Positions 5,215 to 53,547 of a stretch of DNA of 64,000 bases are shown piece by piece (within the stretch, counting starts at the first letter, position 1; each line of letters opens with the position of its first letter). The stretch is from the NCBI RefSeq assembly GCF_036860695.1, contig NZ_JAYKGJ010000001.1, forward strand, positions 1-64,000, written 5' to 3'. The notes under the pieces are model-generated. The model did not search any database. It saw nothing but the letters and a program-made list of their open reading frames with translations, and was not told the DNA's origin. The stretch comes from Rosettibacter firmus (GTDB taxonomy: Bacteria; Bacteroidota; Ignavibacteria; Ignavibacteriales; Melioribacteraceae). The position numbers and the translations under genes are program-made.

Positions 5215-6297
5215 TTATCTTTGAATTCTTGCAGAGCCACCTTTAGCAAAAGCTCTAACTTCTTCCAGAGTAGCCATTGTTGTATCACCTGGATAAGTAG
5301 TAAGTAAAGCACCGTGTGCCCAACCGAGTTTAACGGCTTCTTCGGGATCTTCATCAGTCAATATTCCATAGAAAAATCCAGCTGCAAAACCATCACCACC
5401 ACCAACTCTATCATATACATCAAGTTCTGCAGTAGGAGCTTGATATACTTTACCATTAATCCAGGCAACAGCACTCCAGCTATGTCGATTAGTAGAATGC
5501 ACTTCGCGTAAGGTTGTAGCAACAACTTTAACATTAGGAAATTTTTTAACTACATCATCAATCATAGCAACAAAAACAGAAGGATCAAGTTTAGATTTAG
5601 CAGTAACATCTGGACCAGGAATTCCCAGACCTTTTTGTAAATCTTCTTCATTTCCAACAAGAACATCAACATGTTCAACAATTTGGTTAATCACTTCGAC
5701 AGCCTTTTTTTCTCCACCCCATATATTCCACAATTTTGCTCTAAAATTTAGATCAAAACTTGTAACAGCTCCTGCAGATTTTGCAGCTTTCATTCCTTCA
5801 ATTATTAATTTACCGGTTGTTTCTGAAAGTGATGCAAAAATTCCTCCACTATGAAACCATTTAACACCATTCGAAAAAATTGAATTCCAATCAATATCAC
5901 CTGGTTTTAATAAAGCTGCAGCTTCGTTACTACGATTATAAAAAACTACAGGTGCACGAGAACCATATCCTCTATCACTATAAACAGTAGCCATATTAGG
6001 TCCATTTACTCCATTATGTTGAAACTCCTTAGCAAAGAGTTTCACACCCATAGCTCTTACTCTTTCGGCAATTAAATCACCAATTGGATATTTAACAATT
6101 GCAGTAACAATTCCAGTATTAAGTCTAAAACAATCAGATAAATTTGCAGCTACGTTATACTCACCACCACTAACATGAATTTTACATTCTGTTGCTTTTC
6201 TAAAAGGAATGATGCCAGGATCAAGACGATGCACAAGTGCTCCAAGTGAAACTAAATCTAAAGAAGCATTCTGATTAATTTGAAGACCATACTTCAT
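5215..6297 (-). CDS. kdgK: PfkB-family sugar kinase, probable 2-keto-3-deoxygluconate kinase
   Basis: Ribokinase-fold (PfkB) kinase of 360 residues, predicted to phosphorylate 2-keto-3-deoxygluconate (KDG) to KDPG with ATP. The substrate-site SGGEYNVAANL (Gly44-Asn48) is near the N-terminus, and the C-terminal signature YDRVGGGDGFAAG ends in catalytic base Asp302. The signature departs from the usual DTxGAGD in the way many KdgK-type kinases do. It lies 76 bp after uxuB and upstream of the repeat array. The presence of Eda supports KDG as substrate. A gluconate or other aldonate specificity cannot be excluded, since no separate gluconokinase is in view. Confidence 0.85.
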   Translation of the reverse strand: MKYGLQINQNASLDLVSLGALVHRLDPGIIPFRKATECKIHVSGGEYNVAANLSDCFRLNTGIVTAIVKYPIGDLIAERVRAMGVKLFAKEFQHNGVNGPNMATVYSDRGYGSRAPVVFYNRSNEAAALLKPGDIDWNSIFSNGVKWFHSGGIFASLSETTGKLIIEGMKAAKSAGAVTSFDLNFRAKLWNIWGGEKKAVEVINQIVEHVDVLVGNEEDLQKGLGIPGPDVTAKSKLDPSVFVAMIDDVVKKFPNVKVVATTLREVHSTNRHSWSAVAWINGKVYQAPTAELDVYDRVGGGDGFAAGFFYGILTDEDPEEAVKLGWAHGALLTTYPGDTTMATLEEVRAFAKGGSARIQR

Positions 6298-47242: not shown

Positions 47243-48943
47243 TTAACTTGAAGACTTTGCAGCAATTTTTGCCCATGTATCCTTCAACGTTACTGTTCTA
47301 TTAAATACTAATTTTCCATCTTTAGAATATTTTGGATCGACACAAAAATAGCCTAATCTCTCGAATTGAAATTTATCCAATGGTTTTGCATTCTGTAAAA
47401 ATGGTTCAAGCTTTGCATTTGGAATTATTTCAAGAGAATTTGGATTAATATAATCCAGCCAATTATCCAGTTCACCAGGATTTTCAACATTAAATAAACG
47501 ATCGTAAAGACGAACTTCGGCATCGAAGCAATGTTTTGCAGAAACCCAGTGAATTACACCTTTCACCTTTTTGTTACTTGTTCCTGTTCCACTTTTTGTT
47601 TCAGGATCATAAGTGCATCGTAATTCCACAATTTCACCTTTTTCATTTTTAATTACTTCTTCACACTTAATTATATATGCATATCTTAATCTAACTTCAC
47701 CACCAGGCATTAAACGATGATAACCTTTAGGTGGATTTTCCATAAAGTCAGTTGATTCAATATATATTTCGTTTGAGAAAGGAATTTTTCTTGTACCAGC
47801 ATCAGGATTTTCTGGATTATTTATAGCATCTAAAAGTTCTTCTCCATTATAATTTGTAATAACTACCTTAAGAGGATTTAAAACTGCCATAGCTCTTTGT
47901 GCTGTTTTATTTAAATCTTCTCTTATAGCATATTCAAGCAAACTTACATCGGTTAATGCATCTCTCTTGGCAACTCCAATCATTTCAGTAAATTTCCAGA
48001 TTGCTTCAGGAGTATATCCTCTTCTTCGAAGTCCAGATATAGTTGGCATTCTTGGATCATCCCAGCCATCTACTATCCCTTTTTGAACGAGTTCGAGTAA
48101 TTTTCTTTTACTCATTACAGTATAACTTAGGTTTAATCGAGCAAATTCAATTTGCTGAGGATGATAAATTCCAAGTTCGTCTAAAAACCAATCATAAAGT
48201 GGTCTATGATTTTCGAACTCGAGTGTGCAAATAGAATGAGTTATTCCTTCAATTGAATCTTCGAGACCATGAGCCCAATCATAAGTTGGATAAATACACC
48301 ATTTATCACCCTGTCGATGATGTCTCTGGTGAATAATTCGATACATTACTGGATCTCTCATATTCAGGTTTGGAGATGACATATCAATTTTGGCTCTTAA
48401 TGTTTTAGAACCATCCGGAAATTCTCCCTTTCTCATTCTTTCAAATAAATCTAAATTTTCTTCTATACTTCGATTACGATATGGGCTTTCAATGCCTGGT
48501 TCAGTTAATGTTCCTCTTGTAGCTCTTATTTCTTCTGCACTTAAATCGCAAACATATGCTTTCCCTTTTTTAATTAATTCAATTGCCCATTGATACATTT
48601 GTTCAAAATAATCTGATGCAAAAAATAATCTATCTTCAAAATCTGCCCCAAGCCATTTTACATCTTCAATAATTGAATTAACATATTCAGTATCTTCTTT
48701 TTCTGGATTGGTATCATCAAATCTAAGATTAAACTTACCACCATAATATTTAGCAATTCCATAATTAAGACAAATCGCTTTTGCATGGCCAATATGAAGA
48801 TAACCATTTGGTTCAGGAGGAAATCTTGTATGAACTCTACCACCCCATCTATTATTTTTTATGTCTTCATCAATGATTTCATAAATGAAATTTTTGGGCT
48901 TTTTATCTACAGGCTTGTCGTTAATATTATTTTTATTATCCAT
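47243..48943 (-). CDS. glnS: Glutaminyl-tRNA synthetase
   Basis: 566 residues from the preferred start. The HIGH-type motif [15 protein letters not shown] and the KMSKS-type VMSKRKL mark a class I GlnRS, with the C-terminal anticodon-binding beta barrels intact. An in-frame ATG at 48985 would add 14 residues unlike the family. The ATG at 48943 (MDNKNN), with AAGG 5 nt upstream, is chosen. It is convergent with gltX and divergent from the chemoreceptor gene. Confidence 0.95.
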
Positions 48944-49202
48944 ATTTACCTTAAAATTATATTCAATACTTACAAAATTAAACAAATATTAAAAGGTGCT
49001 CAAATTATCTACGATAAAATAAGAAATTAAGTTTCATTCTCCCTAAAAATTACATTCATGTTTTTTTAAATTGAATGTGGCTGCTTTATAATTCATTCTT
49101 GATAATAACTTACCTCAAAATGATTAAACTAAATAATTTTTAATACGATAATTAATATGTAGAAATCTAAAAAATCTTATTAAATTATGACGAGCTACTT
49201 AA

Positions 49203-51710
49203 ATGAAAAATAAAATACTTAAAAAATTAGTATTCATTTCCCCAATATTAATATTACTGTCTATTTCTATTACATTTGTTACCTATTTCATATTAAAGAA
49301 CAATAATTATGCCTCAGGAAATAATATTTTTAATAATTCAATCTTTGGCTGGAGTATAATTATTAGTTTAATAATATCCTTAATTTTTTCATTACAATAT
49401 TATATAGGAATTGAAAGACCACTAAATAAAGTTAAATCTTTCATAAAAAAAATAGCAGAAAATGATGCAGCATATTTATCCACTGCTCTTACTGAATTAT
49501 CCCATGGAAATTTAACAGCCGAAATTCATGTGAATTCAAATTCATCACTTAAGACTTTTGCAATTGGTGAAGTAAAAGAAATAATAGATGATCTAAATTC
49601 AATAGCTTCTAATCTTTATGAAGCCAGCAAGGAATTTAATACGGCAACAGATGTACCCTGCAAAAGGCTTTTCTATGTTGGTGCAGATTCCTATCTGGAA
49701 GGAAAAAAATGCGGCGAAGCAATGGCAGAAGCATTGAAAGGAAAAGGAAAAGTAGCAATCATAATTGAAAGATTGGGAGTTATTGGACAGGAATTGAGAA
49801 GAAAAGGTTTTCAAAATTATTTAAAAGAAAATGCTCCACAAATTTCAGTAGTAGATATTGTAGAAGGTTACAATAATCCAGAATTATATTTAGAAAAAAC
49901 TAAATGGTTGTTAAATAAGTATCCAGATTTATCAGGTATTTATATTACACACGATGGTGGTGGTTTTTCAAAAACAATAAAAGAACTGAAATTGAAGGAT
50001 AAATTAAAAATTGTTTGTCACGATATGAGTAATAGAACAATGCAGCTAATTTCAAGCGGAGAAATTTATGCTACTTTATCACAGGATGAATTTGCACAGG
50101 GTTATAATCCAGTTATTCATTTATTTAATCATATAGTAGCTAACTGGGAGCCACCTAATCCTCGATTGTTAACAGAACTTCAACTAATTACAAAAGAAAA
50201 TTTCCATAAATACTGGCATCCTGATAAAGGAACTATTGAAAATGAAGAGAAAATTTTAAAAAGACCAAAACCAGAAAAGAAATCAAATAGATTAATTAAG
50301 ATTGCAGTTCTTGGAAGAGAAGGTTCAGATTTCTGGGTTTCCTTTAAAAAAGGCGTAGAAACTGCATCAAACATTTTAAGAAGATACAATGCTCAAGTAG
50401 ATTGGATTATACCACCAGGTTCTCATACAAAAGATAAATTTAATGTTAGTGCAGAAATTTATGGTACAGCAATAGAAGATTGCATTAATCAAAAATACGA
50501 TGCTATATGTACCGGGATTTATGATAAAAATTTAGTCTCATACATAAATAAAGCTGTTGAAACAGGTATTCCTGTTGCAACTTTCAATAGTGAACCAATA
50601 AGTCTTCGCGGATTATTAAAAACTCTATCAGAAAGAACTATTAAGTTAACCGAATTTAGCAATAACCTTTCAAAAGTTGCAAAAAATACAATTGACATTA
50701 CAAATAATAATGTTGAATCTATTCAAAACATGGTTAATAGTTTAAATGAAGAAGCAACATCTGTGAATACTGCCAATTCTAACATAGAACAAATTTCAGT
50801 AACAATTAATAATATTGCTCAGGATTCACATGAACAAAAGTTAGCTTCAGAACATGTATCAGTATCAGTAAATGAAATAGCAAAAGCAATTGATTTAGCT
50901 AATTCAATTGTTTCTTCAATTGTAAAATCATCTGAAGAATCGATTAATGTTGCAAAACAAGGTGAAAATTCTGTAATGAAAACTGTTGAACAGATGAAAG
51001 TAATCGAAAAGACTATTCAGGATTTTGCAACAACTATAGAAGAGATGTTAAAACAATCAAGACAAATAGAAGAAATAATTCAAACCATAGAATCAATAGC
51101 AGATCAAACTAACCTGCTGGCATTAAATGCAGCGATAGAAGCAGCACGTGCAGGAGAACACGGTCGTGGTTTTGCAGTAGTTGCCGACGAAGTTAGAATT
51201 TTAGCAGAAAAATCTGCTGATGCTACTAAACAAACTTCAAACATTATTTCTAAAGTACAACAAAATATTTCCAATGCTAGTAATTCAATAAAAACTATTG
51301 TTAATAATGTTGATTATGGAACAAGTTTAGCAAACGAATCTGGAATATCAATTAAAAAACTTCTTGATTCTTACTTTAATATGAATAAACAAATAGAAAG
51401 TATGGTAAAAGCAAATAATACAATTTCTGAAATAATGAAGAGTTTGCTCGAATCGTCAGATAAAATTTCATCAGTCATTCAACAAAATATGAGTGCTACA
51501 GAAGAGTGCAGTCACAGTGTAAAACACACAGTTGAGATGATAAACAATATTTCAGCTATAAGTCAATTAAATGCAAATATGATAAATGAAATTGCCAATA
51601 AAACAATTAATGCTAAAACTGAAGCTGAAGAATTAGGTAAAGTAGCTTCTAATTTATTAGAAATGGCACACGAGTTACAAGCTGCAACCGCACAGTTCAA
51701 AATAGATTGA
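49203..51710 (+). CDS. Chemoreceptor with a cytoplasmic, permuted periplasmic-binding-protein domain
   Basis: 835 residues. Two transmembrane helices (about 9-31 and 49-68) flank a short outside loop of ~17 residues. A HAMP-like region follows (70-125). Residues 152-335 match the C-lobe and closing segment of RbsB-type sugar-binding proteins ([19 protein letters not shown] to [12 protein letters not shown]). Residues 364-465 match the N-lobe ([20 protein letters not shown] to [10 protein letters not shown]). The order is thus reversed, as in a circular permutation at the first hinge strand. The MCP signalling helices (480-835) have an intact tip at about 629-672 ([29 protein letters not shown]). 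The binding domain is on the cytoplasmic side, so it should sense an internal sugar or metabolite. No cheA or cheW nearby. Confidence 0.85.
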
Positions 51711-51715
51711 TGAAA

Positions 51716-53547
<1,832 letters not shown>

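Follow-up and report, generated by a model that had tools for sequence, protein, structure and literature searches.

Chemoreceptors are activated in several systems by periplasmic binding proteins, RbsB or MglB acting with Trg and MBP with Tar, and XylFII pairs extracellularly with the histidine kinase LytS. The principle that periplasmic binding proteins activate chemoreceptors is set out in PMC9602780. In TpMglB-2 (Tp0684) of Treponema pallidum (structures 5jx2, 6bgc and 6bgd), proposed as a 'Type Ic / Cluster Bc' binding protein, N-lobe strands 1–3 are carried at the C-terminus, and the protein is a glucose-binding periplasmic lipoprotein clustered with ABC transporter genes (PMC4990184). 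MCPs, permuted type I binding proteins (PMC4990184) and binding-protein domains serving as sensors are already in print.

The locus described here lies in a window of 64,000 nucleotides (the whole stretch of DNA that was analysed) from Rosettibacter firmus, whose genome measures 3.24 Mb, and encodes a methyl-accepting chemotaxis protein with two N-terminal transmembrane (TM) helices, a HAMP-like segment, a Peripla_BP_4 (RbsB-type) domain and an MCP hairpin (Table 1). The open reading frame (ORF) at 49203–51710 (+) is intact, with an ATG start and 835 codons plus stop, and its Pfam matches above cut-off are MCPsignal (145.9 bits; curated cut-off for PF00015, 34.6 bits) and Peripla_BP_4 (132.7 bits in all, in two stretches). 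The initial annotation had given the identical ORF and the same domain order, now reproduced by Pfam and hydropathy, and its residue bounds for the two lobes (152–335 and 364–465) are correct to within a few residues of the Pfam stretches. The HAMP profile matched weakly, in five of 11 proteins scanned (best, 1.5e-5), the window protein being among the 11 and not among the five; when nine members of the family were scanned singly, five matched at E ≤0.1 and only L040 exceeded the cut-off (25.6 versus 25). The model helices in this part, predicted with low confidence, run over residues 73–100 and 123–147. The linker carries a conserved G-x-I and, in Ignavibacteria members, RPKP; the outgoing junction carries a conserved NSEPxSLR, with the outgoing helix predicted to begin 4–6 residues past N462-S463-E464.

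Table 1. Features of the chemoreceptor gene, in window coordinates
Feature	Residues	Position	Strand	Evidence
Membrane-anchored chemoreceptor, whole ORF		49203..51710	+	835 aa; ORF and Pfam
TM helix 1	9–27	49227..49283	+	Kyte-Doolittle mean 2.44; net charge +4 ahead
TM helix 2	46–64	49338..49394	+	Kyte-Doolittle mean 2.27; net charge +2 over next 15 residues
HAMP-like helix-connector-helix leading into ligand domain	71–147	49413..49643	+	HAMP matches of relatives; model helices
Permuted domain part 1: C-lobe and start of return into N-lobe	150–304	49650..50114	+	Peripla_BP_4 90–247
Rest of return and final C-lobe strands	305–339	50115..50219	+	phmmer matches to XylFII and GanP extend here; model strands 321–323 and 326–330
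Linker, ancestral C-terminus to ancestral N-terminus	340–365	50220..50297	+	Multiple alignments
Permuted domain part 2: N-lobe strands 1–4	371–464	50313..50594	+	Peripla_BP_4 6–89; model strands
Outgoing signalling helix (predicted)	468–519	50604..50759	+	Model helix, pLDDT about 50
MCP signalling hairpin	576–758	50928..51476	+	MCPsignal 145.9 bits

In the binding domain, a type I solute-binding-protein fold occurs in circularly permuted form. The order of the Peripla_BP_4 match is reversed, with residues 150–304 corresponding to profile positions 90–247 and residues 371–464 to positions 6–89, the two stretches together covering 6–89 and 90–247 of the 258 profile positions; taken by itself, the N-lobe piece passes the cut-off (36.1 versus 35.1 bits). 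When the halves were rejoined in the usual order, a single match resulted (7–247, 143.3 bits; native order, 130.5 bits), and searches against PDB sequences returned single continuous alignments to AraP (94.2 bits), XylFII (90.3 bits) and GanP (89.5 bits); the native order returned a C-lobe match and at best a weak second piece. As controls, each of the five other Peripla_BP_4 ORFs in this genome gave a single match in forward order, and in ordinary binding proteins with both halves matched in one place (related genomes G029, G033 and G057) the N-lobe half comes first. The forward control ORFs, together with full-length collinear relatives in other genomes and in another phylum, argue that the swapped order is not due to chance. 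The split-half profile search thus bears out the permutation put forward in the initial annotation, the complementary halves fusing into one Peripla_BP_4 match. A LacI origin is disfavoured, Peripla_BP_1 scoring 12.9 bits against 143.3 bits for the joined Peripla_BP_4; no HTH family occurs among the Pfam matches of the window protein, whose N-terminus consists of two hydrophobic segments.

An AlphaFold2 model of window residues 71–520, built with 11 sequences, reached a mean pLDDT of 76.9 and a pTM of 0.68; when the binding domain is divided into 31 blocks of ten residues, 28 of these have a mean pLDDT of 80–98. In the HAMP-like part and in everything from the outgoing junction onward pLDDT is about 46–62, and these low-confidence regions coincide with the site of the coupling proposed below. 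The modelled chain passes from the incoming helix (123–147) through strand 157–160, the C-lobe, the return strand 290–294, the closing C-lobe strands (321–330) and the linker to N-lobe strands 365–370, 397–402, 434–438 and 458–461, and then into the outgoing helix from residue 468. Computed in this way, the domain is predicted to be one two-lobed unit rather than two separate incomplete domains, the alternative named in the initial annotation. Among the best 50 Foldseek matches, TpMglB-2 chains (6bgc_A, 6bgc_B, 6bgd and 5jx2) have the top four TMq values (0.43–0.48, over 364–375 columns); the other 46 have TMq ≤0.39, 42 of them spanning 176–232 columns and four 256–288, three of these four with rmsd >12 and 5er3 with 5.1. 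Among the best 50 VIA-align matches, 6bgc_B aligns with model residues 74–383 over 285 residues (rmsd 3.7, Z 21.6) and is outranked by 24 by Z, the others aligning over at most 211 residues. Only the naturally permuted TpMglB-2, among the PDB matches listed, spans essentially the whole domain. Strands and helices follow one another in the same order in a second model, built for L038, which is 41% identical to the window protein over the modelled region; 5er3 has the highest TMq among the best 50 Foldseek matches of the L038 model (0.48 over 249 columns), and TpMglB-2 is absent from both best-50 match lists for this model.

Because N-lobe strands 1–4 lie on the C-terminal side in the model, the cut is placed between strands 4 and 5, and as strand 5, by the RbsB lobe boundaries that we assume here, still belongs to the N-lobe, both chain ends would lie at the edge of the N-lobe, a few residues upstream of the point where the chain first crosses between the lobes. 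The permutation therefore stands as annotated, with the cut moved from the first hinge strand itself to just upstream of the first crossover; similarly, both signalling helices do attach beside the hinge, but on the N-lobe edge and not one per lobe. It is extremely improbable that there is no permutation and that the protein combines two separate incomplete lobes, or stems from a recent fusion or an assembly error: HMMER does give two stretches, but they are complementary (6–89 and 90–247) and become a single match once joined, a single domain is predicted, and collinear full-length relatives occur in three phyla.

The side of the membrane was assessed by hydropathy (Kyte-Doolittle 19-residue mean, threshold 1.6). 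Past residue 130, the window protein has no hydrophobic segment (top 19-residue mean, 1.03). The scan covered 30 proteins of the 32-protein set described below (all except L065 and L079), 27 of which have exactly two hydrophobic segments, all inside the first 110 residues; the exceptions are L043, with a third segment overlapping the second, L067, with one segment, and L068, with three peaks, two of them overlapping. Beyond residue 130, no TM candidate was found in any of the 30 (highest mean, 1.47). The MCP hairpin functions in the cytoplasm, and with no hydrophobic stretch between domain and hairpin, whichever of the earlier segments are genuine TM helices, the pocket is on the hairpin's side, i.e. 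cytoplasmic. This agrees with the annotated location inside the cell: hydropathy gives no TM after TM helix 2 and does not place residues 152–465 outside. A periplasmic placement was rejected in the absence of a later hydrophobic stretch, and although binding proteins of the Peripla_BP_4 family are usually exported, we give almost no credence to a domain outside the membrane, given that no TM candidate past residue 130 appears in 30 proteins (maximum 1.47 versus 1.6).

The layout is common to 32 aligned proteins from Ignavibacteria, the phylum of L038–L040 and one Chloroflexota plasmid, a set that omits the G758 fragments L076 and L078 and duplicate copies of the same genes. It is kept in three phyla, the phylum of L038–L040 being taken as distinct from that of the window by its size (82 genomes against more than 395), and a survey of other HAMP-PBP-MCP proteins, suggested at the outset, found collinear full-length relatives in all three. 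Genome searches spanned two phyla, that of the window and that of L040. With the own genome counted, full-length matches were found in 7 of the 146 nearest genomes (any match in 21), in 13 of 391 genomes of the class, in 3 of 395 genomes of the window's phylum, all three already in the class count, and in 10 of 82 genomes of L040's phylum (16 with any match, the other six being partial matches in frames of 308–372 aa, one with an internal stop). A 14th class match, L051 (G319), is a 663-aa frame that by eye reads as a CUT2-type permease fused ahead of a type I sugar-binding protein. The Chloroflexota member is a plasmid gene (Leptolinea AP024711; BCY19493.1, annotated 'hypothetical protein'), and of the 495 plasmid records matched it alone has a query coverage of at least 80%; with the Leptolinea domain as query, 36 records matched, again only itself at that coverage. 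Three phage records matched, none covering >80% of the query, and 16 stretches of viral contigs fitted a pattern, none of them a relative.

A scan of named genomes with two exact peptide patterns, which distant relatives escape, yielded 10 loci. Their proteins all match both Pfam families of the receptor, Peripla_BP_4 and MCPsignal, and can be aligned with the window protein over the full length; the closest comes from a Melioribacter sp. MAG (L031, 80% identity). Of the nine members that were scanned one by one, two belong to these 10 loci; all nine show MCPsignal and a two-stretch Peripla_BP_4 match, the best stretch lying within profile positions 86–254. The receptor family has a patchy distribution. 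Trees built separately for sensor and hairpin recover the same main groups, with four label changes, the fewest possible, in both; support is weak on many inner branches, family f10 is not a single clade in the sensor tree, the Leptolinea branch is long, and the hairpin tree carries a long-branch warning with bootstrap unsettled. One genome of L040's phylum (G760) encodes four paralogous permuted receptors (L066, L075, L077 and L079), which suggests several ligands. The incoming junction (PCxRL) contains a cysteine at residue 153 (window 49659–49661) that 30 of the 32 members share, across phyla. Relative to the window protein, L038–L040 lack 28 residues (four heptads) from each hairpin arm, symmetrically, and the hairpin tip reads VNVLALNA in these three and TNLLALNA in the other members.

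The receptor gene is flanked by glnS (47243–48985, −) and atpC/atpD (51716–53538, −), named by eye from their translations, and these neighbours point to no ligand. Outside the window's genus, comparison of neighbouring ORFs found no consistent common neighbour of the receptor loci. By eye, pentose-phosphate enzymes lie near L036 and L037, a trpB-like gene near L034–L036, and sulfatase- and glycosidase-like genes near L040; deducing the ligand from gene neighbours was dropped, since the neighbourhoods, read by eye, have no shared theme. In Melioribacter sp. fen_1284, ORFs reading as Cas9 (1431 aa), Cas1 and Cas2 lie at 5934–11570 of L032, ~3 kb downstream of the receptor.

Contacts in the pocket were mapped by eye onto RbsB, whose sugar-contact residues we take to be R141, D215, Q235, F15, F16, D89 and N190. 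Six of the seven positions matched to these contacts are near-invariant among the 32 aligned proteins (R199 in 32, D274, Q294, F377 and W378 in 31 each, N462 in 30), and position 250, the equivalent of N190, varies (Y in 10, E in 9, H in 5, D in 3 and other residues in 5 of the 32). N462-S463-E464 presumably align with the contact D89 and the next two residues; E464 is found in 30 of 32 proteins and D in two. Beyond the RbsB-matched positions, H273, Q299, N309, W315 and W338 are invariant (each 32/32). Judged by conservation in the alignment, the near-invariant pocket-type residues argue for a functional pocket and one common class of ligand. The five additional invariant positions, the cytoplasmic location close to the membrane and the lack of a neighbour gene indicating a ligand would also fit a domain that serves as docking site for a protein partner (a permease for uptake, a kinase or an enzyme) and reports that partner's state instead of binding a solute; the near-invariance of the six pocket-type residues, however, goes beyond what docking needs, and we regard this explanation as unlikely. 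Very unlikely is a binding domain that is a structural relic, with the membrane part or the HAMP-like segment doing the sensing: the N-terminal anchors and HAMP-like segment resemble those of an ordinary receptor, but in the alignment conservation is poor across the TM and loop sequence and is among the highest at pocket-type positions.

We consider it fairly probable that the protein is a membrane-anchored chemoreceptor whose cytoplasmic permuted ligand domain would respond to a solute by lobe closure and a change at CheA. The ligand would be a small neutral sugar-like cytoplasmic solute (free monosaccharide, cyclitol or similar), possibly the kind of pool read by LacI repressors. Binding would close the lobes, and closure would re-angle or re-phase the outgoing helix, since the HAMP-side and hairpin helices both join the N-lobe edge by the first hinge and the predicted helix start is only 4–6 residues past 462–464. 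The helix change would in turn alter CheA activity and flagellar behaviour, and the cell may in this way track its own internal solute supply, not the outside concentration. Weighing against this explanation are gene neighbourhoods that suggest no ligand, the variable position 250, the absence of TpMglB-2 from the best-50 lists for the L038 model and the low pLDDT in the regions where the coupling would take place. The only other Peripla_BP_4 matches of this genome (E ≤0.01) are the five control ORFs, with N-termini that by eye are LacI-like, so that Peripla_BP_4 seems to be intracellular in this organism.

Counted in its support are the agreement of the sensor and hairpin trees in their main groups and, for the preferred explanation's output side, signalling and motility ORFs of the same genome: three CheW-domain ORFs above cut-off (two short and one 590-aa CheA-like) and two flagellin-type ORFs, one reading like a hook-associated protein. 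The che- and flagellin-type ORFs lie on contig 1 at about 110–117, 140 and 175 kb and on contig 3, apart from the receptor gene. This distance would be consistent with an array that senses the ligand as proposed and controls surface motility or a second messenger in place of flagellar swimming, and non-flagellar outputs of chemosensory pathways are known (PMC8547431); the presence of flagellin-type, CheW and CheA-like ORFs in this one genome nevertheless makes such an output quite unlikely. Taking the preferred reading, internal solute sensing coupled to flagellar behaviour, one step further, these receptors could form an undescribed, widespread class in which a Venus-flytrap domain is inserted in a cytoplasmic signalling coil by its own hinge, closure on an internal sugar-like solute moves the helix, and taxis leads toward pool-filling conditions, a generalization for and against which we see the case as evenly balanced.

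In titles and abstract openings of the openly available literature, preprints aside, we found no description of an MCP containing a binding-protein domain that is permuted or cytoplasmic. The initial annotation's 'distinct design' thus holds for a permuted cytoplasmic chemoreceptor domain and not for binding-protein sensor domains as such, which are already in print. What appears new is a permuted cytoplasmic binding domain in a chemoreceptor, with well-supported anatomy and a putative ligand and mechanism. If correct, it would provide a defined intracellular small-molecule receptor for metabolism-dependent taxis, with a hinge-bending domain wired straight to the signalling helix, and because the outgoing helix is predicted to start 4–6 residues from pocket residues, the coupling of lobe closure to the helix would be testable in one soluble fragment. 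Biosensor engineers deliberately set chain ends beside the hinge, and the natural permutation of the type I fold may have a role in setting both ends there.

Like TpMglB-2, the sensor is a permuted type I fold with C-terminal N-lobe strands, and the structural match extends over nearly the whole domain; unlike in TpMglB-2, four strands are moved instead of three, the cut falling one strand later, and the domain is part of a receptor chain rather than a periplasmic lipoprotein whose gene is clustered with those of an ABC transporter (PMC4990184). Another permuted order is suggested by the sequence matches of 5er3, a Rhodopirellula baltica protein titled ABC solute-binding protein, in which residues 230–329 of 341 match the N-lobe end and C-lobe start of the joined query; judging from these match positions, its cut would lie downstream of the one described here, inside the C-lobe, which suggests that the type I fold has been permuted in nature a second time, at a different site. 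As with RbsB or MglB and Trg, or MBP and Tar, a binding protein of the same or a related fold feeds an MCP, but the separate periplasmic protein of those systems is here a domain built into the receptor, inside the cell. XylFII-LytS (5xss, 5xsj and 5xsd) likewise combines a binding protein with a signalling partner; XylFII, one of the nearest relatives of the sensor by sequence with a solved structure, is a separate, unpermuted protein. LacI-family repressors share the fold and the cytoplasmic location, but bind DNA and are unpermuted. Finally, in contrast to the typical Peripla_BP_4 protein, which is exported and serves an ABC transporter, the domain described here forms a segment of an MCP and lies in the cytoplasm.
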